Source: a virus. Taken from it: a stretch of 64,000 nucleotides of DNA. Shown one piece after another: positions 4,531 to 51,818 of the stretch; the first letter of the stretch is position 1, and each line of letters starts with the position of its first letter. A program made the position numbers and the translations under genes. The notes below the pieces were generated by a model. That model had not been told where the DNA came from. It saw nothing but the letters and a program-made list of their open reading frames with translations, and ran no database searches. The stretch is taken from the IMG/VR virus record IMGVR_UViG_3300001533_003623, positions 1-64,000 of that record; one strand, written 5' to 3'.

Positions 4531-4684
4531 GTTGTTCAAGAAGTTCTATGCACTTAAAAACTTCTACTCTCGTTGTGGTTCATTGTGGTCGGAAGGAAAA
4601 TTCATTAGCACTATTGGTTTTGTCAGTGCTGATACAATTAAAAGATACATTCAAGAGCAAAAAGAGTTTGATGAGGACGAGTGA
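4475..4684 (+). pseudogene. tnpA: IS200/IS605 tnpA 3' remnant
   Basis: In the frame ending at 4684 the sequence reads PTVAPSDIVRTFKSISA..., then SLWSEGKFISTIG and TIKRYIQEQ. This is the C-terminal part of Y1 (IS200-type) transposases, including the helix with the catalytic tyrosine (K-R-Y-I). The HUH half and the element's left end are missing. The remnant abuts release-factor sequence near 4470. It overlaps tnpB by GTGA at 4681, the junction expected in a native tnpA-tnpB pair. No start codon with a ribosome site is visible. Confidence 0.7.
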
Positions 4685-5886
4685 AGATATTAAGAGCATA
4701 CAGATATAGGTTGTATCCAACGAAAAAACAGGAACAACAATTAAAACAACAATGTGGAAACTGCCGTTTCCTTTGGAATAGGTTTCTTGACATGAACCAA
4801 CGGCAGTATGAAAATACAGGCAAGTTTGTGTTTGCTTATGAACTCATTACTTCCATTCCCGAACTCAAAAAAGAACATGACTTCCTCGGACTTACGTTTA
4901 GCCAATCGCTTCAACAAGTAGGTCGTTTTTTTGACAGAGCATTAAAAGACTTTATCGCAGGCATCCGTGAGTTTCCAAAGCACAAGAAAAAGAAGTATCA
5001 AGACGGATTGACCGTTCCACAAAAGTTCCGCTTAAACAAAAAGTTTGTGTTCATTCCAAAGATTGGTGAAGTTCAATGGGTTAAACACAGACCATATAAA
5101 GGTAAAGTCAAAAGTATCACCGTTAAGCAAGATGGCGACCAGTGGTATTGCTCGGTTTTGTGTGAACTAAGAATTAAACAACCAAAAACAAATACAGATA
5201 ATGTTGTTGGCATAGATGTAGGTCTGAAAACATTTGCCACATTGTCCGATGGGACAACAGTTGAAAACGAACGAGTATTAAGAAAGCACGAAAGAAGGTT
5301 GAACAAAGCCCAACGCATACTTTCTCGGAGAAAGAAAGGTGGGCAAAACAGAAACAAACAACGGGTCAAGGTTGCGAAACTTCATCGTAAAGTCCGACAT
5401 GTAAGAAGTAATTTCCAACATCAAATCACAAGTCGTATGATAGCCAAATATGATGGATTTGCTTTGGAAACACTGAACATTGAAGGTATGATGAAGAACC
5501 ACAATCTTGCTAAAAGTATAGCCGATGTTGGTTGGTATAGTTTTAAGCAAAAATTGAAGTATAAGTCAGAGTGGAGTGGCAAAGTGTTTCTTGAAATAGG
5601 AACATTTGAGCCGAGTAGCAAAACTTGTCATTGTTGTGGATGGAAGGACACAGACCAAATGCTTCAAGACCGAACATTCTGTTGTGAACAATGCGGAATG
5701 GATATGGACAGAGACTTGAATGCCGCTATCAACATTAGGAATATAGCGATTAAAGATATACCGTGGGACGCACGGGAATTTACGCTTGGGGATGATAAGA
5801 GGTTGCAGTCAGATAATGACAGTGCTTGTCGTAGAGCCAAGAAAAAACAATGCTTAGCCCTAACCGAACTTGCATCGGTTAGATAG
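4681..5886 (+). CDS. tnpB: IS605-family TnpB RNA-guided nuclease, 401 aa
   Basis: TnpB is the ancestor of Cas12 and cuts DNA next to a TAM, guided by an RNA from the element's right end. Visible: N-terminal AYRYRLYPTKKQ (OrfB helix-turn-helix), RuvC-I GIDVGLKTFATLS (catalytic Asp), RuvC-II with Glu in FALETLNI, zinc finger CHCCGW...CCEQCG, and RuvC-III Asp in DRDLNAAINI. All three acidic residues are present, so it may be active. GTG start overlaps the tnpA remnant stop. It ends in a Lys/Arg-rich tail. Without TnpA it cannot transpose alone, but could still act as a homing-type nuclease. Confidence 0.9.
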   Translation: MKILRAYRYRLYPTKKQEQQLKQQCGNCRFLWNRFLDMNQRQYENTGKFVFAYELITSIPELKKEHDFLGLTFSQSLQQVGRFFDRALKDFIAGIREFPKHKKKKYQDGLTVPQKFRLNKKFVFIPKIGEVQWVKHRPYKGKVKSITVKQDGDQWYCSVLCELRIKQPKTNTDNVVGIDVGLKTFATLSDGTTVENERVLRKHERRLNKAQRILSRRKKGGQNRNKQRVKVAKLHRKVRHVRSNFQHQITSRMIAKYDGFALETLNIEGMMKNHNLAKSIADVGWYSFKQKLKYKSEWSGKVFLEIGTFEPSSKTCHCCGWKDTDQMLQDRTFCCEQCGMDMDRDLNAAINIRNIAIKDIPWDAREFTLGDDKRLQSDNDSACRRAKKKQCLALTELASVR

Positions 5887-8022: not shown

Positions 8023-8969
8023 TAGAATTCAAAGACAAATATTTTCCAGTGTTAGACCATGGTTTTTGTGCACTCGTAGATTACATGGGTGACGATACAG
8101 CTATTACAAGAGCGGCACGGTGTAGTTATGGTGCTGGTAATAGAAGTGTATCTGATGACCGAGGTTTAATACGCACATTGATAAGGGAAAAGCATACTAG
8201 TCCATTTGAAATGTGTGAAGTTGTATTGCATGTTGGCTTACCAATATTCGTTGCGCGTCAATGGATAAGACATAGAACGGCAAGTCTAAATGAATATAGT
8301 GGTAGATATAGTATAATGCCGTCTATATACTACACGCCAGATAATGATAGACTACAAGTGCAACACGCTAAGAATAAGCAGGGAAGTGGGCCTGTATGTA
8401 TTGACGAAGACGCAAAGACCGAAATCAGCACACGGCGTGATGCGCTACGTCATTTTATTACTAACCACTATAATCAATGTCTAGAATTTGACCTTGCGCG
8501 TGAATTATCTCGTATTGACCTACCTCTTAGTACATATACTTTTTGGTATTGGAAGATTGACCTAAAAAACCTACTACATTTCTTACGGCTTAGGCTTGAC
8601 CAACACGCTCAGTGGGAAATTCAACAATACGCTAAAGTCATAGCTGGTCTAGTAGCAAAGTGGGTGCCATTAACATGGGAGGCGTTTGTTGATTATGAGT
8701 TATGTAGTACAACATTCAGCAGACCAGAATTAAAAATACTTGATATTTTGTTCTACGCGCAAGAATTAGATATTGGCACATTAACAAACGAGCACATGTA
8801 TTATATTCGTGGTTTATGTGATAAAAATGGTCTTACAGGTAGAGAACAAGATACATTTATAGAAAAGCTCAAATGTCAACCAAACCTCCCAGCTCATATT
8901 GAACTAAACGTTAATAACGCGAAGACCCCAGAATTTTACCAACAAATGATAAATCAAGGTGTAGTATGA
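8019..8969 (+). CDS. thyX: Flavin-dependent thymidylate synthase ThyX, 316 aa
   Basis: Makes dTMP from dUMP using FAD, NADPH and methylenetetrahydrofolate. The signature RHRTASLNEYSGRYS (about residues 85-99) is the ThyX motif RHR-x7-S with the following conserved Ser-Gly-Arg-Tyr. The second half carries the substrate-binding region (ARELSRIDLPLSTYTFWYWK...). About 90 residues longer than minimal ThyX, with an extra C-terminal helical domain. ATGA overlap with the previous gene. Works with the dCMP deaminase, NrdJ and dNMP kinase encoded further on. Confidence 0.93.
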   Translation: MIEFKDKYFPVLDHGFCALVDYMGDDTAITRAARCSYGAGNRSVSDDRGLIRTLIREKHTSPFEMCEVVLHVGLPIFVARQWIRHRTASLNEYSGRYSIMPSIYYTPDNDRLQVQHAKNKQGSGPVCIDEDAKTEISTRRDALRHFITNHYNQCLEFDLARELSRIDLPLSTYTFWYWKIDLKNLLHFLRLRLDQHAQWEIQQYAKVIAGLVAKWVPLTWEAFVDYELCSTTFSRPELKILDILFYAQELDIGTLTNEHMYYIRGLCDKNGLTGREQDTFIEKLKCQPNLPAHIELNVNNAKTPEFYQQMINQGVV

Positions 8970-21889: not shown

Positions 21890-22244
21890 ACAACTTAGCA
21901 AAGCAGAACAAGAGTACATTGTTAACCACAGCAAAGACTTGACAGCAGCAGAAATCGCGTCTGATATGCCTGGGGTTGGTGCTAAAACAATACAAAAGTT
22001 CATTGACGAAAGCGTATTAGAAGACCAACGTAGCGACGAAACGCAACAACAGCGACAAGCTACGTTACAAAAAAAAACAAAGCTGACCGCAGGCAAGTTA
22101 ATGGGTAGAGACCCATCAAGAGGTATAACTGTTATGACTGAAGCTGCATCAGAACTATCTGATTCTCGTAGACCAGTTCACCAAAAAACAGCTATTAGAA
22201 GTGAACGTATTCACGTTATTGACAAAAACAGAAAGTCTCCGTAA
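21882..22244 (+). CDS. Helix-turn-helix protein, 120 aa
   Basis: N-terminal LSKAEQEYIVNHSKDLTAAE, then IASDMPGVGAKTIQKFI, is a homeodomain-like helix-turn-helix. The remainder is Gln/Lys-rich and low complexity (a Q-rich run near residue 50), probably a disordered tail. AAAGGAG site before ATG. Likely a DNA-binding regulator or accessory factor; target unknown. Confidence 0.55.
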   Translation: MPRQLSKAEQEYIVNHSKDLTAAEIASDMPGVGAKTIQKFIDESVLEDQRSDETQQQRQATLQKKTKLTAGKLMGRDPSRGITVMTEAASELSDSRRPVHQKTAIRSERIHVIDKNRKSP

Positions 22245-25043: not shown

Positions 25044-25639
25044 AGACAGTAAAAGATGTATTCTATGATGCAATTAAACATGGAAACTGGGATAATGTCT
25101 GTAGGGTATACGAAAAGATTACTGGAGAAGAGGCACCCCCCTTCCCTGCTCAGAATAACATCCTTGATACAGCAATGGTCGAATCTCAACCAACTAACAT
25201 CATGGATGAATCCATGGTAGAAGATGAACACGATATTGTAACTAGCACAACAGAAGACCCGCAGCAAAATGGCGATGTAGACTTCACTATGCCACAAAAG
25301 CCACGCACGCATACTGATGGCCAAACAAGACAATGTCGCCGTGAACCTATTGGAAAACCTAAAAACACTTGGGTAGACGACGGTACCGAACACGCAGATG
25401 AAAGCGTAAAGATTAGACCTGAGCTTGGTGTTCCGCACGTACGAAAGCGTGATGATAGCAGAGACCCAAATATTGGTATAGATACAGGTAAAAAAACACT
25501 AGTAATGTGCGCTTTGTGTGGTAGGGAAGAAGTAGTTTCATCAAGATTAGCTATTGGTTATAATCCAGACCCAGAAGAAAATACGTATCGTTGCAACAAT
25601 TGTCTATCCCCAACATCACGGACAATGAGGAATCGATAA
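25040..25639 (+). CDS. Hypothetical protein with C-terminal zinc finger, 199 aa
   Basis: Short N-terminal helical domain, a long acidic/polar linker, then CALCGREEV...CNNC near the C-terminus, a four-cysteine zinc finger. ATGA overlap with the previous gene. Ends 2 bases before dnaB. May be a helicase or primase accessory; function unknown. Confidence 0.5.
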   Translation: MKTVKDVFYDAIKHGNWDNVCRVYEKITGEEAPPFPAQNNILDTAMVESQPTNIMDESMVEDEHDIVTSTTEDPQQNGDVDFTMPQKPRTHTDGQTRQCRREPIGKPKNTWVDDGTEHADESVKIRPELGVPHVRKRDDSRDPNIGIDTGKKTLVMCALCGREEVVSSRLAIGYNPDPEENTYRCNNCLSPTSRTMRNR

Positions 25640-25641
25640 TA

Positions 25642-28203
25642 ATGATAGAAGAACCTATTCATCCGTTTTTATTAAAAGATGAAAAGATGTCTGATAAAGC
25701 TGCTGAACGAGCAGTTTTGGTGGGGTTATTGCAATATGGTGAAGACGCATACTTAGACATTGCAGATTTTCTTGATACAGGTAGCTTTACTGACCCGGTT
25801 AATCAAGCAGTGTATAAATGCATACGTCATCTATATGAAGAGCAAAACATCAAGCAATTCGACCAATCATCTTTGTTGGCGTGTGCTAATATGCTTGGGT
25901 ATGGTGTGTTCTTCGAAAAGCCATCCGATATACAGCATTTGCGAAGCTTATTAAATGGTAGAGTATTGCTGGAAAATGTACGCACGTGGGCAGCGCAAAT
26001 ACGTAAGTTACAAGTTGGAAGACTATTGCGTGACCAATTGCAGCAAGCAGCCATAGATATTGAGGAAATAAGAGGCACGGAATCTATTGAGTCTATATTG
26101 GGTGTTGCAGAAAGCGTGGTGTTCGATTTCAGCAACTTGCTACACTCAAGCGAAACTTCTAATCCATCATCTATTGGCGATGGTGTAGATGAATACTTAG
26201 ACAATATCGAAAGCAATCCAGTAAGTATCGTTGGTATTAGTAGCGGCATGTCATATTACGACCAAGCGATTGGTGGTGGGTTTCGACGTAAGACTGTATC
26301 ATTGATTGGGGCACGCCCCAAAGCATTGCGTTATGGGTCTTTGGTTTACACAATAAATGGACCAGTACCGATTGAAAAAATTCGCGTTGGTGATATGGTA
26401 TCACATCCATTTGATGGACCAAAAGTTGTTAGTGGTGTATACGACCACCCAAATACTAAAATATATCGAGTTCACTTCAAAGATGGTGACTATGTAGATT
26501 GTTGTGGTGACCACTTATGGGAAGTTTACAAAAGATATCCATATGGTTTTCTTAATAACAAAAAATCTGAACAGAAGACAACAAAAGAATTGATAAATAA
26601 CTTAACTATTGGTAGTGGCCACGAATATAAATGGGACGTTCCACTTAGTTACCCATTGTATTTTTCTGCACAATCCATAGAACTTAATGCATATGTTCTT
26701 GGCTTGTTGATTGGAGATGGTTCATTCCGTAACGCTATAACATTTTCTACAGCAGATGTAGAACTAATAGAATGTATAAAATCATCATTACCAGGTTATA
26801 GTATCAAATTAGAAATAGACACAGGAACATGTCAAACATATAGAATCAACGGTCTTCAAGATACAATTCGCTCACTAGGTTTATACAAACATAAAGCATG
26901 TGATAAGTTCATTCCAAAACACTATATCTACAACTCCGAACGGGTAAGATTAGATATACTACGTGGACTAATGGATACAGATGGCGATTGTACAATCAAT
27001 CATAATAATGGTAGTTCTAGGTCTAGATTTTCTACAATATCAAAGCAATTGGCAATAGATGTAAAAACAATAGTGCAATCTTTAGGTGGGTTGTGTAGTA
27101 TTACCATACAAAATGGAAACTACGATGGTAAACCACATAAGTCATATAGATGTGAAATAAGATTGCCATCAAACATAAATCCATTCAAGTTGCAGCGCAA
27201 AGCAAAAAGACACAACTCACGACAACATGGTGAACTAAAAAGAACCATTGTTAAAATTGAAGACCTTAACATAACAGATAATGCAAGATGTATTACAATT
27301 GATTGTGAAGATGGATTATTTATAACAGATAACTTCGTGGTTACCCACAACACCGGCAAGTCGATGCTATCAGTCAATATTGGTTTGCACATATCTAAAG
27401 AATTAGGTATACCAGTGTTGTATCTTGATACAGAAATGTCCAAAGAAGACCATTGGTCTCGTATGTTGTCGAATCTATGTCAAACTAAAGTAACAATCAA
27501 TGATTTAGAAGCAGGTAAGTATGCTAGCAACAAACTATATAAACAGTCTGTTAGACAAGCCGCCGACATATTGAAGAAATTACCATTAGATTATCTCAAT
27601 GTTTCTGGTAAACCATTTGAGGAAATTATCTCTATTATGAGACGATGGGTAACGAAAAACGTTGGTTTTGATGAAACTGGCAAACGCAAAGACTGTGTCA
27701 TTATATTTGATTACATGAAGATGATGAGCGGAGAAGGTCTAAATGATAGCTTAAAAGAATACCAAGTTCTTGGCTTTATGATGACTGCGCTACATAACTT
27801 TGCGGTACGCTATGATATGCCTATCGTTAGCTTTATACAACTAAATCGTGATGGAATAGACAAAGAGTCTACAGATGTCATAGCTGGTAGTGACAGGGTT
27901 TTGTGGCTGGTAACTAACTTCACGGTCTATAAGGCCAAGACCGCCGAAGAAATTGCAGACACAGGTCCGCAGCACGGCAATCGCAAATTAGTGCCTATTA
28001 GTGCTAGGCATGGTGAAGGATTAGAGCCTGGAGACTATATTAATGTTATGTTTACGGGTCAGTTTGGTAGAATAACTGAAGGAGAGACCAAACTTAATTT
28101 ACAAAGAAAACATCATGACGATATCGTAGATGATGTAAATGACGTACCGTTTAATGGAGACGCTGATGAAAATGAGTCAAGCGGTAGTCAACCAGATAAC
28201 TAA
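25642..28203 (+). CDS. dnaB: Replicative DNA helicase DnaB with intein, 853 aa (510 aa after splicing)
   Basis: Hexameric 5'-3' helicase. The N-terminal domain starts KAAERAVLVGLLQYGEDAY. The RecA-like motor has Walker A GARPK-TGKS, interrupted after Lys by the intein (residues 228-570). After the intein come LYLDTEMSKEDHW, VIIFDYMKMM (Walker B), and RHGEGLEPG near the C-terminus. GAGGAA lies 9 bases before the chosen ATG at 25642. Active helicase requires protein splicing because the P-loop is split. The primase gene overlaps the 3' end. Confidence 0.92.
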   Translation: MIEEPIHPFLLKDEKMSDKAAERAVLVGLLQYGEDAYLDIADFLDTGSFTDPVNQAVYKCIRHLYEEQNIKQFDQSSLLACANMLGYGVFFEKPSDIQHLRSLLNGRVLLENVRTWAAQIRKLQVGRLLRDQLQQAAIDIEEIRGTESIESILGVAESVVFDFSNLLHSSETSNPSSIGDGVDEYLDNIESNPVSIVGISSGMSYYDQAIGGGFRRKTVSLIGARPKALRYGSLVYTINGPVPIEKIRVGDMVSHPFDGPKVVSGVYDHPNTKIYRVHFKDGDYVDCCGDHLWEVYKRYPYGFLNNKKSEQKTTKELINNLTIGSGHEYKWDVPLSYPLYFSAQSIELNAYVLGLLIGDGSFRNAITFSTADVELIECIKSSLPGYSIKLEIDTGTCQTYRINGLQDTIRSLGLYKHKACDKFIPKHYIYNSERVRLDILRGLMDTDGDCTINHNNGSSRSRFSTISKQLAIDVKTIVQSLGGLCSITIQNGNYDGKPHKSYRCEIRLPSNINPFKLQRKAKRHNSRQHGELKRTIVKIEDLNITDNARCITIDCEDGLFITDNFVVTHNTGKSMLSVNIGLHISKELGIPVLYLDTEMSKEDHWSRMLSNLCQTKVTINDLEAGKYASNKLYKQSVRQAADILKKLPLDYLNVSGKPFEEIISIMRRWVTKNVGFDETGKRKDCVIIFDYMKMMSGEGLNDSLKEYQVLGFMMTALHNFAVRYDMPIVSFIQLNRDGIDKESTDVIAGSDRVLWLVTNFTVYKAKTAEEIADTGPQHGNRKLVPISARHGEGLEPGDYINVMFTGQFGRITEGETKLNLQRKHHDDIVDDVNDVPFNGDADENESSGSQPDN
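26323..27351 (+). mobile_element. Class 3 intein with LAGLIDADG endonuclease in DnaB P-loop, 343 aa
   Basis: The intein starts with Ala (ALRYGSLVYT) instead of Cys/Ser and ends VVTHN before Thr+1. All three residues of the class 3 WCT set are visible: Trp in GDHLWEVY (block B), Cys in ITIDCEDG (block F) and Thr in VVTHN (block G). Two LAGLIDADG-type helices, YVLGLLIGDGSF and LRGLMDTDGDC, indicate a homing endonuclease that may still be active. Insertion lies exactly inside the Walker A motif, between K and TGKS. Confidence 0.9.
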
Positions 28204-29161
28204 TGAATGCTGCGACAATATTGGGGATATGCTAGATACATTAGATGTTAAGTATACTCAAAGTCATCGACGCATATTTGGTCCATGTCCAATTCATGGT
28301 GGAGACAATCCAGTAGCCTGGAATCTGTATCCAGAAGGTGAGTCGGTACGTGGAATTTGGTATTGCTACACGCAAAACTGTCAAGAAAAATGGCGTAAAA
28401 CACTTGTAGGGTTTGTTCATGCTTTATTGACCGTGAGAGGTAGCGAACCTAAGTCATGGCAAGATGCCGTATTATGGATGTCTGAATTTCTTGGATACAA
28501 GGATATTGCAGATGTAAAAACGCCCGACGCAGGAACATTAGAACGTCAAGGGTTCAATAATGTGATGCGTAGATTAAGTATTAAGCCTAACACTAACGTA
28601 GTACGCACATGGACACCAAAATCATATCGCAAAGCGATGCAAATTCCGTCTCAATATTACATTGACCGAGGGTATAGCGCCGAAATATTGCAAAAGTATG
28701 ATGTCGGGTATGCGCCGCGAACCAACAGGTCAGTAGTGCCGATATATGATGACTCGCATACAACAATTGTTGGTATGACAGGTAGAACGCATTGGCCACA
28801 ATGTCCTCTGTGTAAATACTATCATGCTGCCGATAAAGAATGTCCTACGACAACGGGTGACAAGATTAACTCGTGTAAATGGAAAAACTCGCCTGGGTTT
28901 GAAGCATCTAGTTATTTATATAATTTTTGGTTTGCCAAACCACATATTGAAAGTACCGGCACCATTATATTGGTTGAAGGACCGGGCGATGTTTGGAGGC
29001 TAGAAGAAGCAGGAATTAAAAACAGCGTGGCAATTTTTGGTACAGTACTGAATGAAGAGCAATTAGTTCTATTAGAGTCATCATGGGCAATGAACGCTGT
29101 TGTTTTGACAGACAACGATAAGGGCGGGCAATTAGCCGCAATAGACATAAAAAAAAACTAG
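28166..29161 (+). CDS. DNA primase (DnaG/TOPRIM type), frame 0 part, 331 aa
   Basis: Makes RNA primers for replication. N-terminal zinc-binding domain with CPIHGGDNP and a later CYTQNC. The TOPRIM core starts at TIILVEGPGDVWRLEEAG (catalytic Glu) and continues with VLTDNDKGGQ (the acidic D-x-D site). ATG at 28166 has GGAGA 5 bases upstream inside dnaB. Frame 0 ends at 29161 right after the TOPRIM D-x-D, too early for the fold. The missing end is present in the -1 frame up to 29304, giving about 379 aa. Confidence 0.85.
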   Translation: MKMSQAVVNQITNECCDNIGDMLDTLDVKYTQSHRRIFGPCPIHGGDNPVAWNLYPEGESVRGIWYCYTQNCQEKWRKTLVGFVHALLTVRGSEPKSWQDAVLWMSEFLGYKDIADVKTPDAGTLERQGFNNVMRRLSIKPNTNVVRTWTPKSYRKAMQIPSQYYIDRGYSAEILQKYDVGYAPRTNRSVVPIYDDSHTTIVGMTGRTHWPQCPLCKYYHAADKECPTTTGDKINSCKWKNSPGFEASSYLYNFWFAKPHIESTGTIILVEGPGDVWRLEEAGIKNSVAIFGTVLNEEQLVLLESSWAMNAVVLTDNDKGGQLAAIDIKKN

Positions 29162-29304
29162 ATAGAACACACAGATTATACTTCCCAAAGTTTCATACCA
29201 AAGATATCGGTGGATTACAAACCGACCAAATCACCGACGATATACAACCAATACTACAACAAATCAATACCGTACATAAACAACAATTAGGAGCAAAGAA
29301 ATGA
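29149..29304 (+). other. Slippery site and -1 frame extension of primase
   Basis: Nine A's (29149-29157), then C and an in-frame TAG. In the primase frame this reads AAA-AAA-AAC-TAG, so A-AAA-AAC is a perfect -1 slippery heptamer. After a -1 shift the frame continues LDRTHRLYFPKFHTKDIGGL, a typical end of primase TOPRIM domains, and stops with TGA at 29302-29304, overlapping the next gene's ATG as ATGA. Programmed frameshifting or a one-base homopolymer error could both explain it. Confidence 0.75.
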
Positions 29305-30101
29305 CGTATATACTAGGGTTGTCAGGTAAAAAACAAAGTGGCAAAACCATGACAGCAAATTGGATTATAGGACAACAGATGTGTGCTATGAATATGGTGT
29401 CGTGGATAAAAATCAATAGTAAGGGCAATCTTGTGGTTCCTGCTGTTGTCAACGATGAACTTATAGAGGGTGTATTTGACCCGCTAAGTCAAAACCCAGA
29501 TGTACAAAACATGTTGTCTCAATATGTCTGGCCGGTTGTAAAGCTATATTCATTTGCTGAGATTCTGAAAATGTCAGTAGCGGCGATTTTTGGACTATCG
29601 TACGAGCAAGTAAACGGTAGTAATGAAGATAAAAACCGACCGACAAAATTCACGTGGGAAATGTTTAAGCCATTCTTAACCGCAAATATTAAACGAGACA
29701 TATCACAACAAAATGCGTGGTCAGAACATTTGTCTGGTCGTAATTTACTACAGATAGTCGGCACTGAAATATTTAGACGTATACACGGAGACATATGGGT
29801 TGACGCCTGTATGAATGAAATAGCTAATGATAAACCTGGGCTTGCTATAATAACAGATTGTAGATTTCCGAATGAAGTAGATGGTGTGCATAATGCTGGC
29901 GGTAAAGTCATAAGATTTACGCGCTCACCATTCACGGAACAAGACCAACACGAAAGCGAAACAGCGCTTGATGATTATAGTGCTTCACAGTTTGACTTCG
30001 TGCTGGACAATGCTAATATGAGTATTGAAGAACACAATAAAGCGATTAACGAAAAGTTGACAGAATGGGGATACAATACTTGGAAATGGCGTATAGCATG
30101 A
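29301..30101 (+). CDS. Deoxynucleoside monophosphate kinase, 266 aa
   Basis: Phosphorylates dNMPs to dNDPs, as T4 gp1 does. P-loop GLSGKKQSGKT at residues 6-16. LIIVGTE-like (NLLQIVGTEIFRRI), then WVDACM and IITDCRFPNEVDGV, are diagnostic of phage dNMP kinases, as is VIRFTR near residue 210. Full length for the family. ATGA overlap with the -1 frame of primase. Confidence 0.88.
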   Translation: MTYILGLSGKKQSGKTMTANWIIGQQMCAMNMVSWIKINSKGNLVVPAVVNDELIEGVFDPLSQNPDVQNMLSQYVWPVVKLYSFAEILKMSVAAIFGLSYEQVNGSNEDKNRPTKFTWEMFKPFLTANIKRDISQQNAWSEHLSGRNLLQIVGTEIFRRIHGDIWVDACMNEIANDKPGLAIITDCRFPNEVDGVHNAGGKVIRFTRSPFTEQDQHESETALDDYSASQFDFVLDNANMSIEEHNKAINEKLTEWGYNTWKWRIA

Positions 30102-31802: not shown

Positions 31803-32167
31803 ATACATTCGACCAATTAGTGTGGCAACAGGTCCAGACTGTGCGACCTTCATCTATCGTACTTGACAAATTACACGCTCGCGCTATAATACAGGATAGG
31901 GTGGACGCGCTACGTTCCGATAAAATGGACGTTTTAGATACGCTCGTACAAATTGCGGCGGCTGCGCAAATATGTGCAGAGCAACTATTATTGCTAAGAC
32001 AGCAAGAAGAAGCTCCAAAACAAAGCGACTTACAGCATGAGTTGGAATCTATTGTGCAGCATATATTGGACAACATAACAGTAGCACAGCCTAAACAGCG
32101 CGGTGTATCTAGGCAGGTGTGTGAAATAGATACAGAGTTTTTGGAAAAATTGAAGGATATTGTATGA
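31799..32167 (+). CDS. Hypothetical helical protein, 122 aa
   Basis: Ala/Leu/Gln-rich helices with coiled-coil character (AAAAQICAEQLLLLRQQEEA). ATGA overlaps on both sides, the downstream one with dnaE. Contains a consensus promoter in its coding sequence (31863-31890). No family recognised. Confidence 0.5.
   Translation: MNTFDQLVWQQVQTVRPSSIVLDKLHARAIIQDRVDALRSDKMDVLDTLVQIAAAAQICAEQLLLLRQQEEAPKQSDLQHELESIVQHILDNITVAQPKQRGVSRQVCEIDTEFLEKLKDIV
31863..31890 (+). promoter_or_regulatory. Consensus promoter inside gene, upstream of dnaE
   Basis: Perfect TTGACA (31863-31868), 16-base spacer, perfect TATAAT (31885-31890). Lies about 270 bases before the dnaE N-terminal gene and could drive the polymerase operon separately. 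Confidence 0.65.
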
Positions 32168-34137
32168 CGACATACTTTCCTCTGCATGTGCATTCTCATT
32201 ACTCATTACTTGATGGATTAAGTAAACCATCACAAATAGCACGTAGATGTAAGGAACTAAATTTACCGGGCTCAGCTATTACTGACCATGGCAACATTTC
32301 TGGTGCTATTTCTTTTATGAAGGCTATGAAGGGACTTCAGCCAATTATTGGGTGTGAACTATACATAAGTCCAAACGATGCTACTATTAAAGATGGAGAC
32401 CGTACTTTATACCATCTTTGTGTTTTAGCAAAAAATATGGAAGGATGGCGCAGATTAGTACAAATCACAAGCGAATCCAATAAACCAGAGCACTTCTACT
32501 ATAAACCGAGATTGGATTTAGACCGATTAGCTAAATATGCAGATGGCAACTTAATTGCATTCAGCGGACACTTAGGCTCACATTTATCACACTGCATTTT
32601 TAAGGACATGGCGGTACATGACTGTAAAACCGCCGAAGAAGCCAAAGCCCTTACGTACCCTGATTGGGTACAACGCACTACAGATGCGGCTATGCGTCTA
32701 CGTGATATTTTTGGTAAAGATAATTTCTTTATAGAGATACAAGTTATTGATAGCAAGAATATGCCAGCGTGTGCCTTGCTTGCTACAGGTCTAAGGTATA
32801 TCTCTAAAAAAACAGGCATTCCCTGCATAGCAACACCAGATGCGCATTATGCAAAACCAGAAGATGCGTACGACCAAAGAATATTGTTGTGTAATGCCAT
32901 AAATACAAATTTCCAAACTATAGAAGAAAAGAAGGTAAGTGGTGAAAATATTGGAATGGGAGCGTTCTTTCGTTCACGCCAATATCATATACCATCTTAC
33001 GAAACAATGATTCAGTATGGTAATACCGAAGAAGAACTTGCTAATACTATGGTCGTTGCTCAAATGTGTGAGTCTTATGACCTGACATCACCACCTAAAC
33101 TACCTAAATTTCCATGTCCCGATGGAATGACTTCGCGACAGTACCTAACGAAGTTATTACACCAAGGCTGGATAGACCGACAACCGCAAATTCAGAACAC
33201 AATCAACAGAACACATCATACTGAACAAGAATACAAAGACAGACTTAATGAAGAATATAAGATTCTAACAGATGTGGGTCTATCAGATTATTTTCTAATT
33301 GTTAATGATATTATCCAATGGGCACGTAGCCAAGGTCAGCTTACCGGCGCTGGTCGTGGTAGTGCTGCTGGTTCATTAATTCTATACATACTTGGCGTTA
33401 CTCACGTGGACCCAATTGAGTTTGACCTGTTGTTTTCAAGGTTTTATAACGCTGGTCGTAATACAGCCGAACGTATCTCTTTGCCGGATGTTGATATGGA
33501 TTTTGAAATTCAACAACGGTTTAAAATATTAGACTATATACGTCAAAGGTATGGGCGTGAACACGTTGCGCAAATGCTCACGTTTACCAGACTACAGGGG
33601 CGTGGTGCATTAAAAGATGTCATGCGTGCTCATTCTGCTATGTCATTTGAAGAAATGAATCGTGTGACAGCATTTATACCAGATGAAGCTGAAATCAGCG
33701 ACCAATTACAAGCAGTTAAAGAGTTAGATAAGCAGGAAGGTGGGGATGGTGAAGCGTCTATTATACGCTGGGCATTAGAACATCACGCCGACGACCTTAA
33801 ACAATGGGCGTATATTGATGATGACGGCAACATACAAGGACCATACGCTAAGCTGTTTGAACAGGCTATTAGAATAGAAGGCACTAAAAAATCACAAAGC
33901 AAACACGCCGCTGGTATTATTATCGCTCAAGATGTATTATCTGATATATGTCCAATGGTATATGACAAATCTTCTGGTGAGACAATATGTGGAATGGAAA
34001 TGAATGACTTAGAAGATATGGGCAATGTAAAGATAGATATATTGGGCGTAGCAATGTTGGATAAATGCCACGGAATACTCAATTTACTAAAATATGGAAC
34101 TCTATGTAAGGAAAATAATGAATCAACCAACAGTTGA
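32164..34137 (+). CDS. dnaE: DNA polymerase III alpha (DnaE), N-terminal part, 657 aa
   Basis: Replicative C-family polymerase, first of two genes. PHP domain at the N-terminus (FPLHVHSHYSLLDG with metal-ligand His residues). Palm-domain glycine loop GAGRGSAAGSLI, catalytic acidic motif LPDVDMDFE with Asp442 and Asp444, and a further conserved HAAGIII block near residue 580. The gene stops just after KIDILGVAMLDKCHGIL, where ordinary DnaE continues into the finger region. The continuation (DVDIYN ... VFQLEG) begins the gene at 36685. ATGA overlap with the upstream gene. Confidence 0.9.
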   Translation: MTTYFPLHVHSHYSLLDGLSKPSQIARRCKELNLPGSAITDHGNISGAISFMKAMKGLQPIIGCELYISPNDATIKDGDRTLYHLCVLAKNMEGWRRLVQITSESNKPEHFYYKPRLDLDRLAKYADGNLIAFSGHLGSHLSHCIFKDMAVHDCKTAEEAKALTYPDWVQRTTDAAMRLRDIFGKDNFFIEIQVIDSKNMPACALLATGLRYISKKTGIPCIATPDAHYAKPEDAYDQRILLCNAINTNFQTIEEKKVSGENIGMGAFFRSRQYHIPSYETMIQYGNTEEELANTMVVAQMCESYDLTSPPKLPKFPCPDGMTSRQYLTKLLHQGWIDRQPQIQNTINRTHHTEQEYKDRLNEEYKILTDVGLSDYFLIVNDIIQWARSQGQLTGAGRGSAAGSLILYILGVTHVDPIEFDLLFSRFYNAGRNTAERISLPDVDMDFEIQQRFKILDYIRQRYGREHVAQMLTFTRLQGRGALKDVMRAHSAMSFEEMNRVTAFIPDEAEISDQLQAVKELDKQEGGDGEASIIRWALEHHADDLKQWAYIDDDGNIQGPYAKLFEQAIRIEGTKKSQSKHAAGIIIAQDVLSDICPMVYDKSSGETICGMEMNDLEDMGNVKIDILGVAMLDKCHGILNLLKYGTLCKENNESTNS

Positions 34138-36684: not shown

Positions 36685-38790
36685 ATGAGTAAGTTAGTGT
36701 TTGGATGTGGTTGTGAATTTCCAATTGCGAACTGTGAACAAGACATATATGCTGACCATCATACTGGCCCACTCCCGTTAGGCATTGATGTGGATATTTA
36801 CAATATTTCACACACATGTCCAAGAACGTGGGCGTTATTTTCCGAAGGTCACACAAAGGGGGTATTTCAGTTAGAGGGTAACTTAGGTAGAACGTGGGCA
36901 CGTAAGATACAACCAGAAAACTTAGAAGAGTTGTCTGCATTAATTGCACTTATAAGACCAGGATGTCTCAAGGCATTATCCGGTAACCCACCTAAATCTA
37001 TGACTCAAAGATTTAAGGACCGCAAACATAAACTAGAAGATATAGAATATATGCATCCTGCGCTTGAGTCAGTGCTTGATACAACGTACGGGGTTCTGGT
37101 ATACCAAGAACAAAGTATGAAACTAGCCGTGACTCTTGCGGGTTTTGATTTGCAACAAGCAGATGTGCTTAGAAAAAGTATAGGCAAGAAAAAAGCTGAC
37201 ATCATGATTAAAGTTCGTGATGAATTTATAGGTGGTTGTACCACAACAGAAATTGTGACCAAAGAACAAGCAGAAGAGATATTCGGCTGGATACAAGAAA
37301 GCCAAAAATACAGTTTTAACAAGTGCTTATCACCAACAACCGTGGTAGAAACTATTGATGGCAAATACTACACATTAGAAGACGTAGATATTGGAACACA
37401 AATTACTTCACCAAATGGTCCAACAACCATTATTAACAAATATGATAATGGAATACAGGATGTATTTGAAATTACTCTTGAGTCTGGTAAGACAATTCAA
37501 TGTACTATGTCACATGAGTTTTTATGTAAAGACGGTCTAAAACACACGCTATCCGAAATTTTGGAACACGAACTTAAGATTGTGTGTCAAGACCAAGCAT
37601 TATCTCAAGCAGCACAACGGCGCATCATTCATGGCCATACTGGATGTAGTCATTCAACTGAAAAAGTAATTTCAGTACGAAAAATTGGTAAAATGCGCAC
37701 GGTAGATATTGAGGTTGACAATCCATCTCATGTGTTTTATGCCAATGGTGGTGTCGCAACTTCCAATTCACACGCCGTATCCTATGCAGAAGGGGGATAC
37801 TGGACCGCCTATCTCAAGGCACACTTCCCTGCTCAATTCTATTGCTCATTTCTACACGGCGCACAATGGAAACAAGATACTAGTGAAGAAGTATATGAAT
37901 TGGTGAATGATGCCAAACTGAATGATATAGTTGTACGAGTACCAGATTTTAGAGACCAGCAAACAGTACCATATCTCAACGGTACCGAGGTGTGTTTTGG
38001 TATTGGTGATATCAAAAATATTGGTAAGGCCGCTCTACAAAAACTTTACGTCGCTATAAACGACATTGATAAGCCCGTACGAGAGTGGTCGTGGATGGAC
38101 TACATTGCACTATTCTCTAGTCGTGTATCAAGTACAGTCAATGAGGCATTGGTATGTTGTGGTGCTTTGGATTATTACGGCAAGCCTCGTACTACCATGA
38201 TGTATGAGATAAACTTATGGAAAGAGTTGACCAATAAAGAAAAAGAGTGGATAGTAGAACACATGCCGTATGCAGACATGATAACGGCGCTGCGTGAATG
38301 TGCTCATACAAAGAAAGAAGGCGGTGGATGTCACTCAGTTAAAAGGGTGCAGGCAGTAGAAAACATTATTGCCATGATAGAAAAACCACCGCACTCTCTT
38401 TATGATACGGCAGACTTTATAGCGTGGTGTGAAGATAAATATCTAGGTGCATCTCTAACATGTAGCCGTGTAGATGGCTGTATTAAAGCTGTTGAAGCTA
38501 ATGTTACATGTAAAGACGTTGTAAAAGGTTATACTGGATATACAGTTATAGCTGTTGAGGTTACTAGAATAAAACAAGTGAAGACTAAAAAGGGCAAAAC
38601 ACCAGGACAAAACATGGCGTTTATGAGTGTAGCGGATAGCTCATGCTCATTAGATGATGTAGTAGTGTTTCCAGATAAGTGGCGTGAATACAAAGACATA
38701 CTATATGAGGGTAATACAGTTTTGATGCAAGGAGAACCATCACATAAAAAGGGTGGCGGTTTTACTGCGAAAAAGTTTTGGCAGATTTGA
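36685..38790 (+). CDS. dnaE: DNA polymerase III alpha (DnaE), C-terminal part with mini-intein, 701 aa
   Basis: Second half of the split polymerase. It begins with a Cys-rich VFGCGCEFPI region, then resumes the DnaE sequence at DVDIYN, SEGHTKGVFQLEGN, LIRPG and YQEQSMKLAVTLAGFDLQQA, followed by RKSIGKKKAD (fingers). The intein (residues 214-361) splits FNK-SHAVSYAEG. After it come the helix-hairpin-helix region and an OB-like MAFMSVADSSCSLDDVVVF. Summed length of both genes without intein is about 1,210 aa, normal for DnaE. Weak ribosome site. Confidence 0.9.
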   Translation: MSKLVFGCGCEFPIANCEQDIYADHHTGPLPLGIDVDIYNISHTCPRTWALFSEGHTKGVFQLEGNLGRTWARKIQPENLEELSALIALIRPGCLKALSGNPPKSMTQRFKDRKHKLEDIEYMHPALESVLDTTYGVLVYQEQSMKLAVTLAGFDLQQADVLRKSIGKKKADIMIKVRDEFIGGCTTTEIVTKEQAEEIFGWIQESQKYSFNKCLSPTTVVETIDGKYYTLEDVDIGTQITSPNGPTTIINKYDNGIQDVFEITLESGKTIQCTMSHEFLCKDGLKHTLSEILEHELKIVCQDQALSQAAQRRIIHGHTGCSHSTEKVISVRKIGKMRTVDIEVDNPSHVFYANGGVATSNSHAVSYAEGGYWTAYLKAHFPAQFYCSFLHGAQWKQDTSEEVYELVNDAKLNDIVVRVPDFRDQQTVPYLNGTEVCFGIGDIKNIGKAALQKLYVAINDIDKPVREWSWMDYIALFSSRVSSTVNEALVCCGALDYYGKPRTTMMYEINLWKELTNKEKEWIVEHMPYADMITALRECAHTKKEGGGCHSVKRVQAVENIIAMIEKPPHSLYDTADFIAWCEDKYLGASLTCSRVDGCIKAVEANVTCKDVVKGYTGYTVIAVEVTRIKQVKTKKGKTPGQNMAFMSVADSSCSLDDVVVFPDKWREYKDILYEGNTVLMQGEPSHKKGGGFTAKKFWQI
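37324..37767 (+). mobile_element. Mini-intein in DnaE C-terminal gene, 148 aa
   Basis: Begins with Cys (CLSPTTVVETIDG, block A), block B TMSHEFL with the Thr-x-x-His pair, block F TVDIEVDNPSHVF, and ends GVATSN before Ser+1 of the extein. No endonuclease domain, so it is too small to home. The penultimate residue is Ser where most inteins have His. Its insertion is between FNK and SHAV of the polymerase, a few residues from the site used by cyanobacterial DnaE split inteins. Confidence 0.88.
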
Positions 38791-44266: not shown

Positions 44267-44709
44267 ATATATATATCAGTGCTAATAAAGACACACAAGA
44301 TAATGGTTATGTCAATATCAACTTCAATAATGGCATAAACAACTGGAAAGAAACATTAGATGTTACAGTAAGTGATGCTGAAGCAACAGTAATTATCATA
44401 GATGGATTGCTATCATGTCTGCCTATGGAAGAAGCTATTTTGTTTCTACGCACTGTATCGACTAAATTAAGACATGGCGGTACTCTCATTATACATAGCG
44501 TGAATATATATGAAGTAGCCAAAGATTTCTATCAGTATAAGCTAACCGTTCAACAATTCAATGAATTAATATACGGCGTGCAAAGTAACCACAAATTTGG
44601 CATTACGTTAGCTGCATTAGAAAAATTCTGCTCAGCAGAACTTGGTCTAAATGTTGTAAGAAAGACAATTAATAACTATCATTATGTACTGGAGGTACAA
44701 AGACCATGA
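44263..44709 (+). CDS. Methyltransferase-like protein, 148 aa
   Basis: Reads like the second half of a small SAM-dependent methyltransferase: LLSCLPMEEAILFLRTVSTK, then LRHGGTLIIHSVN and FNELIYG, as in class I proteins used in glycan islands. The glycine-rich SAM loop at the N-terminus is reduced, so activity is uncertain. Overlaps neighbours by 4 bp. Confidence 0.5.
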   Translation: MNIYISANKDTQDNGYVNINFNNGINNWKETLDVTVSDAEATVIIIDGLLSCLPMEEAILFLRTVSTKLRHGGTLIIHSVNIYEVAKDFYQYKLTVQQFNELIYGVQSNHKFGITLAALEKFCSAELGLNVVRKTINNYHYVLEVQRP

Positions 44710-45317
44710 ATCGTTCTGTAGACACTATATGTTTAGGGTGTTGTTTTGCACAAGGACAAAGCAAAGATGGATTATTTGAACAAAAACACAACGGATGTAG
44801 TTTACGTATTCTAGATAAATTACGCAAACTAGATGCTAACATTGAGTACGTATACGACGAAAACGATAATCAGTTTCATGTAATATATGGTAGACTATGT
44901 CCTTTCCACAGACCAAATCGCTGGCTACAAAAAGATGAATCTGTTGATGAAAGCCACAAACGAGTTAGAAAAGAAATTAAGTTACAACCAGATGTTGTTA
45001 TATATTGTAATGAAGAAACTAGCATTGATGACTTAAGCGCAACTCTAGATAGCTTACAAAACGGTAGTACTAAACCTGTATGCATCTATGTGATAAACCA
45101 TATGACCAAGATTAAGCCTAGTGAATTCATAGCATTAATGAAACGATATCCATTTCAATGGCGTCTTGAAAGCATATTAGAAGAATGTGATACTAATCGC
45201 ACATTAGATATCGTTACAAAAAAATGTAAAGGTATCTTCGTATCGTATTTTCGTGCGGGTTTTCACGTACCGCAAGAATTTTTCACTAATATAGATGAAG
45301 TATTACAGTGGAAATAA
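44706..45317 (+). CDS. Glycosyltransferase-associated hypothetical protein, 203 aa
   Basis: N-terminal CLGCCFAQG motif resembles the Cys segment preceding family-2 glycosyltransferases. DVVIYCNEETSIDDLSATLD looks like a degenerate GT-A strand-helix, but no DxD follows. Probably an inactive or divergent transferase. A 48-base spacer with AAGGA follows before the next gene. Confidence 0.4.
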   Translation: MNRSVDTICLGCCFAQGQSKDGLFEQKHNGCSLRILDKLRKLDANIEYVYDENDNQFHVIYGRLCPFHRPNRWLQKDESVDESHKRVRKEIKLQPDVVIYCNEETSIDDLSATLDSLQNGSTKPVCIYVINHMTKIKPSEFIALMKRYPFQWRLESILEECDTNRTLDIVTKKCKGIFVSYFRAGFHVPQEFFTNIDEVLQWK

Positions 45318-45365
45318 AAACACAAATATTATAGAAAAAGCAAAACATATAAGTAAGGAACAAGA

Positions 45366-46202
45366 ATGTCCAAATCTAGTACAACCAGTAACGCAACTAG
45401 TTCCCCAGTTGTTGCAGTAATTATACCATGCCACAATCATGCGTGTTATCTACCTCGCGCCATGGCTAGTGTATCACAACAAGACTATGAAAACAAAATG
45501 ATAGTGATTGTAGATGATGGCTCGGATGATAATTCGTTCGAAGTGGCAAAATCATCTATGACACATATTTCAGAAGAAAGTTTAGATAAATCTAACGATA
45601 CACACCTATTATTTGGTGTATACAATGATACACCTGTTATTATTAGCAGTTACCCAATATCAAAAAAACAAGCCCATGCCAGAAACATTGCTATACAATT
45701 AGCGTGGCAACATGCAGAATTGTTTTGTCAATTAGATGCTGATGACTTGTATCTACCTAAAAAGTTAAGTATGTCTGTTGACACATGGAAACAGAACCCA
45801 AACTTCATAGGATTAGTATATAGCGACGCATTAATATATGATGAGCGTGACCAAACAACCATACATGAATTTAGACCCCCATACGATAGAGACTTATTAG
45901 AACAGCGCAACATAATATCTAACGCGCCGCTTATCAGTAAGATGGCTTTAGGATACAGTGGTTTGTATGATGTGGAGTTGCCGCCGTGTGAAGACTGGGA
46001 TTTATGGCTAAGAATCACCGAGAATTTTTTGGCCGTGCATATTCCAGAACCGCTACAACAATATACTGTTACTGGTCAAAATTGTACTTTTACCGTTTCT
46101 AATGAACACTGGCAAAAACAGTGGTCAAGAGTACAAGAAAAATTGCAACTAAGAAAAAGGGATAGATATGGCCAAAGCGCAACGACACATAGCTCCAGCT
46201 AA
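45366..46202 (+). CDS. GT2-family glycosyltransferase, 278 aa
   Basis: VVAVIIPCHNHACYLPRAMASV is the GT2 opening. IVIVDDGSDDNS is the nucleotide-binding loop, FCQLDADDLYLPKKL holds the DxD metal site, and CEDWDLWLRI the catalytic acidic/aromatic motif. Complete domain. AAGGA before ATG. Overlaps the nucleotidyltransferase gene by 35 bp. Confidence 0.88.
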   Translation: MSKSSTTSNATSSPVVAVIIPCHNHACYLPRAMASVSQQDYENKMIVIVDDGSDDNSFEVAKSSMTHISEESLDKSNDTHLLFGVYNDTPVIISSYPISKKQAHARNIAIQLAWQHAELFCQLDADDLYLPKKLSMSVDTWKQNPNFIGLVYSDALIYDERDQTTIHEFRPPYDRDLLEQRNIISNAPLISKMALGYSGLYDVELPPCEDWDLWLRITENFLAVHIPEPLQQYTVTGQNCTFTVSNEHWQKQWSRVQEKLQLRKRDRYGQSATTHSSS

Positions 46203-50174: not shown

Positions 50175-51773
50175 TCAAACGTTGTACACAAATCGTTTTT
50201 TACCACAATCCCAAATACGCGCATACCCATGCTGTAAACACCATTCTTTTTCAGTGATGTTACTAGGGCACCCAGTCTTAGACTTCATCATAGATTGCTT
50301 ACTAATCCTTTGACGGGGTTGGCTAATCTTTACATAAGAATAGTCAGCCCCTATTTCTTTATCTAAAACAAATCCCATTTTGTGATACACAGTTCCAGAT
50401 GACCATCTGTTATCAGACCACGTAGTAATTTTATGAATGCTGTTTTGCTTACACCATTGTATGGCATACTTCAATAGTTTGGACGCGCCACCAAGCACAG
50501 ACACACCACGAACAAACGCTAATCTATCCAATACTATATCTTCAGTCATCCTATGATGATTATTGAGAGACAGCACACCACATAATTCATCCTGGTAGTA
50601 TAATCCAAAATATACAAGAGCAGCTCTACGACATCCTTGTATATGGAATTGCTGTATAAAATTTTTACCAATACTTGAATCAATTATATCTACGTAGCAC
50701 TTTCTACCATAAACAGACTTATTTTTGTGTAGGACTGCGTCTAAGTAACCTTGTACCTGCGGCTGACGTAATAACCACTCGTCTGAAAAAATAGTTATCA
50801 AGCGGATATCTTGTTCTAGACATTGTTTATATTTATCATAATGATAGTTTCTTAATCTTGGTTCTAGCGAAAGTTCATGATGCCAATGTAGTCCGCAGTA
50901 TTCAATACCTAATCGTAAATCGTCATCATAGAAGTCTATTTCTTTACCATTTAGGATGGTTCGATTAGGTTGAAAAGAGTCTCCTAAAAATACGCCTAGA
51001 CTATCCTGTTCAACAAAAGAAGACATATGATATGATTCAGCACCATACCTTTCCATACACGTTTGAATAGCTTTGTTTTTAATAGCTTGGTCTTGTAGTG
51101 TACATGAAACACCATATTTCTTTAAGCACGTTTCACGTATTCTGTTTTGTACTTTAGGTGATTTTGCAGCATATTCAAAACCATATCGTTGCAAATTTGT
51201 GTCCCTAATCTTTTGTTTAACTTCTTCTGATTGAGATGGGTGACTAGTGCCATATTTATTAATAGACGTAGCCTTTACTCTGGCTTTATGTTCGTCGGAT
51301 TGTGTGTAAGACTCTACTCCATACTTTTTCAAACAAGTCGCTCTACGTTTAGCAATGTTTTGGTTTATCTTAGGGCGTTGACCCCAATAACAGTTAGCAG
51401 GAGAACAGGGGGCGGTATTATCTCGTCTACGTAACACCAAGCCCTTACTCCATCCGTTTTGAATAGACCAATCATAAAAAGCTTGATAATCACTAGACCA
51501 TTCTTTGGAAGCTATCCTACGAGTCTTCATGGATTTCCAACTATTATAGACTGGGTGTTTAATTGGCGCAGTATACTTATCATTATACCTATGCATTCTT
51601 TGACTAGCGGCTTTGCGATTATAACACCCACAACTTTTAGTTCTGCCAGAAGTTACACTAGTTGTTCTTATGCTTTTGACAGTACCACAATCACATTTGC
51701 ATGACACCTTACCATTACATGGTAATTCTAATACAGTTAGGTAGTTAAACTTTTGTCCGATATGAATTTTCAT
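50175..51773 (-). CDS. Hef/NUMOD-type homing endonuclease with acetyltransferase-like C-terminus, 532 aa
   Basis: N-terminal zinc motif (CKCDCG...SCGCYNRK) followed by four or more NUMOD-like DNA-binding repeats of form (T)CLKKYGV... (about residues 140-275). A PD-(D/E)XK nuclease core then reads NGKEIDFYDDDLRLGIEYCG with WHHE. The C-terminal part (YQDELCGVLSLNN, then LDRLAFVRG and ITTWSDNRWSSG) is like a GNAT fold. Start ATG 51773 has a perfect AGGAGG. Own promoter at 51798-51825, so it is an independently expressed mobile gene between the two gene blocks. Confidence 0.75.
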   Translation of the reverse strand: MKIHIGQKFNYLTVLELPCNGKVSCKCDCGTVKSIRTTSVTSGRTKSCGCYNRKAASQRMHRYNDKYTAPIKHPVYNSWKSMKTRRIASKEWSSDYQAFYDWSIQNGWSKGLVLRRRDNTAPCSPANCYWGQRPKINQNIAKRRATCLKKYGVESYTQSDEHKARVKATSINKYGTSHPSQSEEVKQKIRDTNLQRYGFEYAAKSPKVQNRIRETCLKKYGVSCTLQDQAIKNKAIQTCMERYGAESYHMSSFVEQDSLGVFLGDSFQPNRTILNGKEIDFYDDDLRLGIEYCGLHWHHELSLEPRLRNYHYDKYKQCLEQDIRLITIFSDEWLLRQPQVQGYLDAVLHKNKSVYGRKCYVDIIDSSIGKNFIQQFHIQGCRRAALVYFGLYYQDELCGVLSLNNHHRMTEDIVLDRLAFVRGVSVLGGASKLLKYAIQWCKQNSIHKITTWSDNRWSSGTVYHKMGFVLDKEIGADYSYVKISQPRQRISKQSMMKSKTGCPSNITEKEWCLQHGYARIWDCGKKRFVYNV

Positions 51774-51780
51774 AAAAAAA

Positions 51781-51818
51781 ACCTCCTCATGTGATATATT
51801 ATACACCACATGGGAGGT
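51781..51818 (-). promoter_or_regulatory. Inverted repeat spanning -10 box and ribosome site
   Basis: ACCTCC-T-CATGTG (51781-51793) mirrors CACATG-GGAGGT (51807-51818), with one extra base, around ATATATTATACAC. The repeat covers the -10 box and the AGGAGG of the homing endonuclease gene. Candidate operator, or an RNA hairpin that hides the ribosome site. Confidence 0.55.

Follow-up and report, generated by a model that had tools for sequence, protein, structure and literature searches.

In dnaX, a replication gene, the product is recoded at a run of A's: nine A's support transcriptional slippage in Thermus thermophilus, and A_AAA_AAG directs ribosomal frameshifting in E. coli. A Shine-Dalgarno-like element ~10 bases upstream is common in bacterial −1 frameshift cases such as dnaX. 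The primase gene described here, which lies in a 64,000-nucleotide window (the whole stretch of DNA analysed) taken from a viral record of 84,015 bases, resembles dnaX in being a replication gene with an A-run and potential short and long products. It differs in that the zero frame of dnaX gives the long product and the shift leads to the short one, whereas here the domain is complete only after the shift, and in that neither conservation nor stimulators were found at the window site. The insertion sequence IS1 is similar at the sequence level, since the A6C motif between insA and insB' contains the same A-AAA-AAC heptamer with continuation in the −1 frame; the reported shift is ~2%, and a downstream pseudoknot is thought to help (PMC12428005). 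However, neither a counterpart of that structure, in modelling confined to stem-loops, nor the functional two-product logic reported for IS1 was found at the window site, which the relatives of the primase lack.

Two further precedents concern frames that are broken rather than programmed. The dnaG gene of Blochmannia vafer is likewise a primase gene with a short A-run indel, otherwise intact and without accelerated evolution, for which rescue through transcriptional slippage has been proposed; coding regions of that organism hold 153 polyA tracts of nine or more, and eight genes are broken in this way (PMC3017870). That gene belongs, however, to a cellular endosymbiont with an extremely AT-rich genome, whereas the present one is a phage gene in a genome of 39.5% G+C with one break. 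The other precedent is the singleton class of the GeneTack survey (PMC3711429), which the window primase matches in being one broken member of a large family, both halves of which are homologous to intact relatives, and in being interrupted close to the 3' end, at a polyA tract.

The primase gene and its frame break

The features needed to follow the argument are listed below, with coordinates in the window.

28139-29161, + strand: primase zero frame as sequenced, with a zinc-binding N-terminus and a TOPRIM domain that is cut short
29149-29157, + strand: run of nine A's, the frame-break site and one of the window's two longest homopolymers
29152-29158, + strand: in-phase A-AAA-AAC heptamer, with the zero-frame stop TAG (29159-29161) directly 3'
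29158-29304, + strand: strongly supported regular C-terminus of the primase, encoded in the −1 frame by 48 codons and closed by TGA, with homology to relatives
29301-30101, + strand: the next gene, dNMP kinase (deoxynucleoside monophosphate kinase; PF21448 / phrog_139)

The open frame of the primase has its first ATG at 28139, shows homology to relatives from 28178 on and ends at 29161 with ...GAC ATA AAA AAA AAC TAG. The protein matches phrog_47 (4e-27) and carries the hallmarks of a DnaG-type primase, namely the N-terminal zinc-binding Cys/His and the TOPRIM E and DxD residues, which are invariant across 30 relatives and have equivalents in the window primase. Its Pfam Toprim_4 match (8e-12) covers profile positions 1-72 of 85 only, and a complete DnaG-type C-terminus is present in the −1 frame only. 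There, 48 codons starting at 29158 (LDRTHRLYFPKFHTKDIGGLQTDQITDDIQPILQQINTVHKQQLGAKK) run to a TGA at 29302-29304 that overlaps the kinase ATG at 29301 in an ATGA junction. The first-pass annotation, made from the sequence alone, had described this layout correctly: a TAG after A-AAA-AAC, a cut TOPRIM domain, a 48-codon tail in the −1 frame and an ATGA overlap with the next gene. The gene content of the window, with a DnaB-type helicase, a DnaG-type primase and a bacterial-type DNA polymerase III alpha, points to a phage.

The A-AAA-AAC at 29152-29158 is an in-phase slippery heptamer of the form X_XXY_YYZ. Removal of one base from AAA AAA AAA CTA G necessarily gives AAA AAA AAC TAG; a one-base shortfall therefore creates the heptamer and the adjacent TAG together, and the two are not independent evidence. 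The heptamer is best read as a by-product of a missing base and is weaker evidence than it appears. There are 25 in-phase A6N heptamers in the window, and the four other in-phase copies of A-AAA-AAC (at 8564, 16713, 40407 and 48714) all lie in intact genes that align to relatives in their own frame; the copy at 8564, in a ThyX-family gene, is also followed by CTA. No stimulatory stem-loop beyond chance was found 3' of the heptamer (z −0.20 and +1.32, in modelling confined to stem-loops). Nor was there a well-spaced Shine-Dalgarno-like motif upstream, the nearest G-rich stretch, AAGGGCGGG at 29120-29128, being 23 bases from the heptamer. Among the papers searched, none joined a phage primase with programmed frameshifting at a slippery site.

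Relatives across the break site

An alignment-based scan recovered 80 viral relatives of the primase at 38-44% identity. The set used here (n=85) adds to these L003, L084, a primase relative inside a metagenome-assembled bacterial genome, and L089, L090 and L092, which were found by neighbouring-gene searches and are the closest three, with 62-66% identity over the fused protein. All 85 cross the site in a single uninterrupted frame, including L054, whose contig stops within the primase tail beyond the break site; among the relatives other than the closest three, most of these frames end in an ATGA-type junction. The combination of a nine-A run and a stop at the site occurs in none of the 85, and L089, L090 and L092 have neither element. 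Where the window reads ATA AAA AAA AAC TAG ATA G, L089 reads ATT AAG GAT AAA CTT AAT CGT and L092 reads ATT AAA AAA CAG CTA CAA CGT. The first-pass annotation had asked whether homologous primases keep the heptamer or an intact frame; the intact frames found throughout count against its suggestion of programmed frameshifting with two primase forms, and exclude frameshifting as a conserved trait of the primase family. No second occurrence of the site turned up in an exact search of IMG/VR that let the length of the A-run vary. The −1 tail as a search query yielded no confirmed relatives and no second record of the virus, and the kinase gene as a query found no relatives.

The 48-residue tail encoded in the −1 frame has matches at E<=0.01 in 64 of the 85 primases of the set; the best of these reaches 7e-15, and identity to the nearest is 61%. 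By contrast, neither the +1 frame nor the zero frame past the TAG matches any of the 85 at this threshold, and the +1 frame was rejected as the continuation of the primase. When the L089 primase is aligned to the window, the match switches within the A-run, leaving the zero frame for the −1 frame without loss of a residue, and both halves of the broken gene are homologous to one intact protein in relatives. Homology thus strongly supports the −1 frame as real coding sequence and the normal ending of the primase, as the first-pass annotation had proposed from the reading frames.

The L089 primase was modelled with AlphaFold2 (mean pLDDT 88), and in a Foldseek search the model matched the DnaG proteins of Aquifex, Bacillus, Staphylococcus and E. 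coli. In this model the frame break maps to the end of helix 314-327, and truncation is predicted to remove strand 332-334 and helix 350-370 (L089 model numbering), so that the TOPRIM protein made as the short form would be incomplete. Window-specific changes are similarly frequent in the tail (6/45 positions) and the body (41/324) of the primase, as they are for L092 (5/45 and 35/324). The tail therefore diverges no faster than the body and bears no sign of decay, and thus the break is very recent, unreal or functionally compensated.

We compared the open frames of the window with those in pieces of two related genomes, G001 (85.9 kb) and G002 (34 kb), to which 55 window genes (48.4 kb) align in their own frame; the primase site is the only one-base frame change among these 55 compared genes. 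The two longest homopolymers of the window are A9 runs, at 29149-29157 and at 22069. The latter is in frame, as are another twelve runs of A7-A8 in aligned genes, and the assembly is therefore not generally poor at A-runs. Apart from the primase site the compared sequence is clean, and the break sits in the kind of run at which polymerases and base-callers are least reliable.

Explanations for the frame break

We consider that this is very probably an ordinary single-frame DnaG-type phage primase whose record is one base short in the A-run near its 3' end. The base would be missing either because the metagenome assembly carries a consensus or base-call error, or because the virus recently lost it through replication slippage; the slippery heptamer with its adjacent TAG would follow in both cases. 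The break is unshared by relatives and is a single case among the compared genes, as expected of a singleton indel or error. A survey of prokaryotic frame transitions expects sequencing errors to account for most singletons confirmed by homology, and breaks close to the 3' end to lean towards indels (PMC3711429). Between error and true deletion we lean slightly to error, which takes about half of the probability, against about a quarter for a real deletion with some slippage rescue, about an eighth for plain loss of function and about a twentieth for programmed recoding. The one-base error that the first-pass annotation offered as an alternative thereby becomes the leading class, widened to include a recent real deletion. 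The frameshift signal is very probably not a real feature; the frame break itself is present in the sequence.

If the deletion is real, slippage of RNA polymerase or of the ribosome on the A-run could still give some full-length primase, and slippage of RNA polymerase on the nine A's would be the likeliest route to it. A real and persisting deletion whose frame is restored in some mRNAs by transcriptional slippage, a sub-case of the one-base shortfall, is a tentative reading that we would not put first. The run has the length of about nine or more A's or T's associated with such slippage: at nine, many bacterial genomes begin to show selection against it, and Thermus dnaX slips on nine A's (PMC1088944); the polyA frameshifts in dnaG and dnaX of Blochmannia vafer may be corrected in the same way (PMC3017870), and the tail shows no decay. 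On the other hand, the A-run is conserved in no relative and the base composition of the genome is not extreme. Less likely again is a genuine deletion whose only effect is a truncated primase; the allele would be loss-of-function or hypomorphic, or the genotype dead. A-runs are hypermutable through replication slippage (PMC1088944), and the break lies towards the 3' end, a position at which singleton breaks tend to be true indels (PMC3711429), but the loss would take in residues 332-370 of the L089 model, which hold the final TOPRIM strand and the C-terminal helix, the gene is intact in every relative seen and no other compared gene is broken.

Programmed −1 ribosomal frameshifting at A-AAA-AAC, yielding short and long primases that are both useful, is improbable, even though the heptamer is in phase with a stop directly after it, is the one used by IS1 (PMC12428005) and would give as its long form the conserved form. 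Against it stand the lack of conservation of the site in 85 relatives, the lack of a downstream stem-loop, the distance of the nearest Shine-Dalgarno-like stretch, the occurrence of four other in-phase copies in intact genes and the prediction that the short form would be incomplete; moreover, in E. coli A_AAA_AAC is far less shift-prone than A_AAA_AAG (PMC5009743). We regard as equally doubtful a recoding peculiar to this virus, in which slippage on the nine A's, whether in transcription or by the ribosome, would set the ratio of truncated to full-length primase; we found no positive support for it. Zero-frame readthrough of the TAG has next to no probability in our view: the frame beyond the TAG is open for 42 codons, but unlike the −1 frame it is similar to no relative, and we rejected readthrough on this homology.

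A one-base shortfall in the A-run, our preferred explanation, illustrates that a textbook-looking slippery site can arise wholly from one missing base. The annotation should treat the primase as a single gene and flag 29149-29157 as a possible frame error. Were the nine A's real, the gene would stand as a rare parallel in phages to Blochmannia dnaG.

Other genes in the window

A second candidate frame break, at ~45.3 kb, was rejected as a large-indel C-terminal divergence rather than a one-base homopolymer break. The frame concerned, 44706-45420, has a G001 homologue of 318 aa (its open frame counted stop to stop) that is about 115 residues longer; part of the C-terminus of this homologue aligns at 45298-45390 of the window, but in another frame and with large intervening indels, and the difference looks like ordinary divergence or truncation.

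The gene at 25591-28203 encodes the DnaB-type helicase and contains an in-frame insert with homing-endonuclease/LAGLIDADG matches that is absent from L089 and L092 and looks like an intein. DNA polymerase III alpha is encoded by two genes, one at 32164-34137 (PHP and NTPase part) and the other at 36685-38790 (finger part), separated by ~2.5 kb that hold an exonuclease gene and others, and a similar split is seen in G001. The second of these parts carries an intein-like insert that does not align to relatives. At 4681-5886 the phage genome has an IS605 OrfB/TnpB-type gene with a Cas12f1-like TNB domain and no match in G001 or G002. A gene at 50175-51809 (− strand), outside the coverage of G001 and G002, has DUF7487 and Mom-like/acetyltransferase matches and possibly has a DNA modification role. 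Among the relatives, L092 has a 409-aa open reading frame without a Pfam match (L092:5997-7226) between the primase and the kinase, which interrupts the usual ATGA junction.
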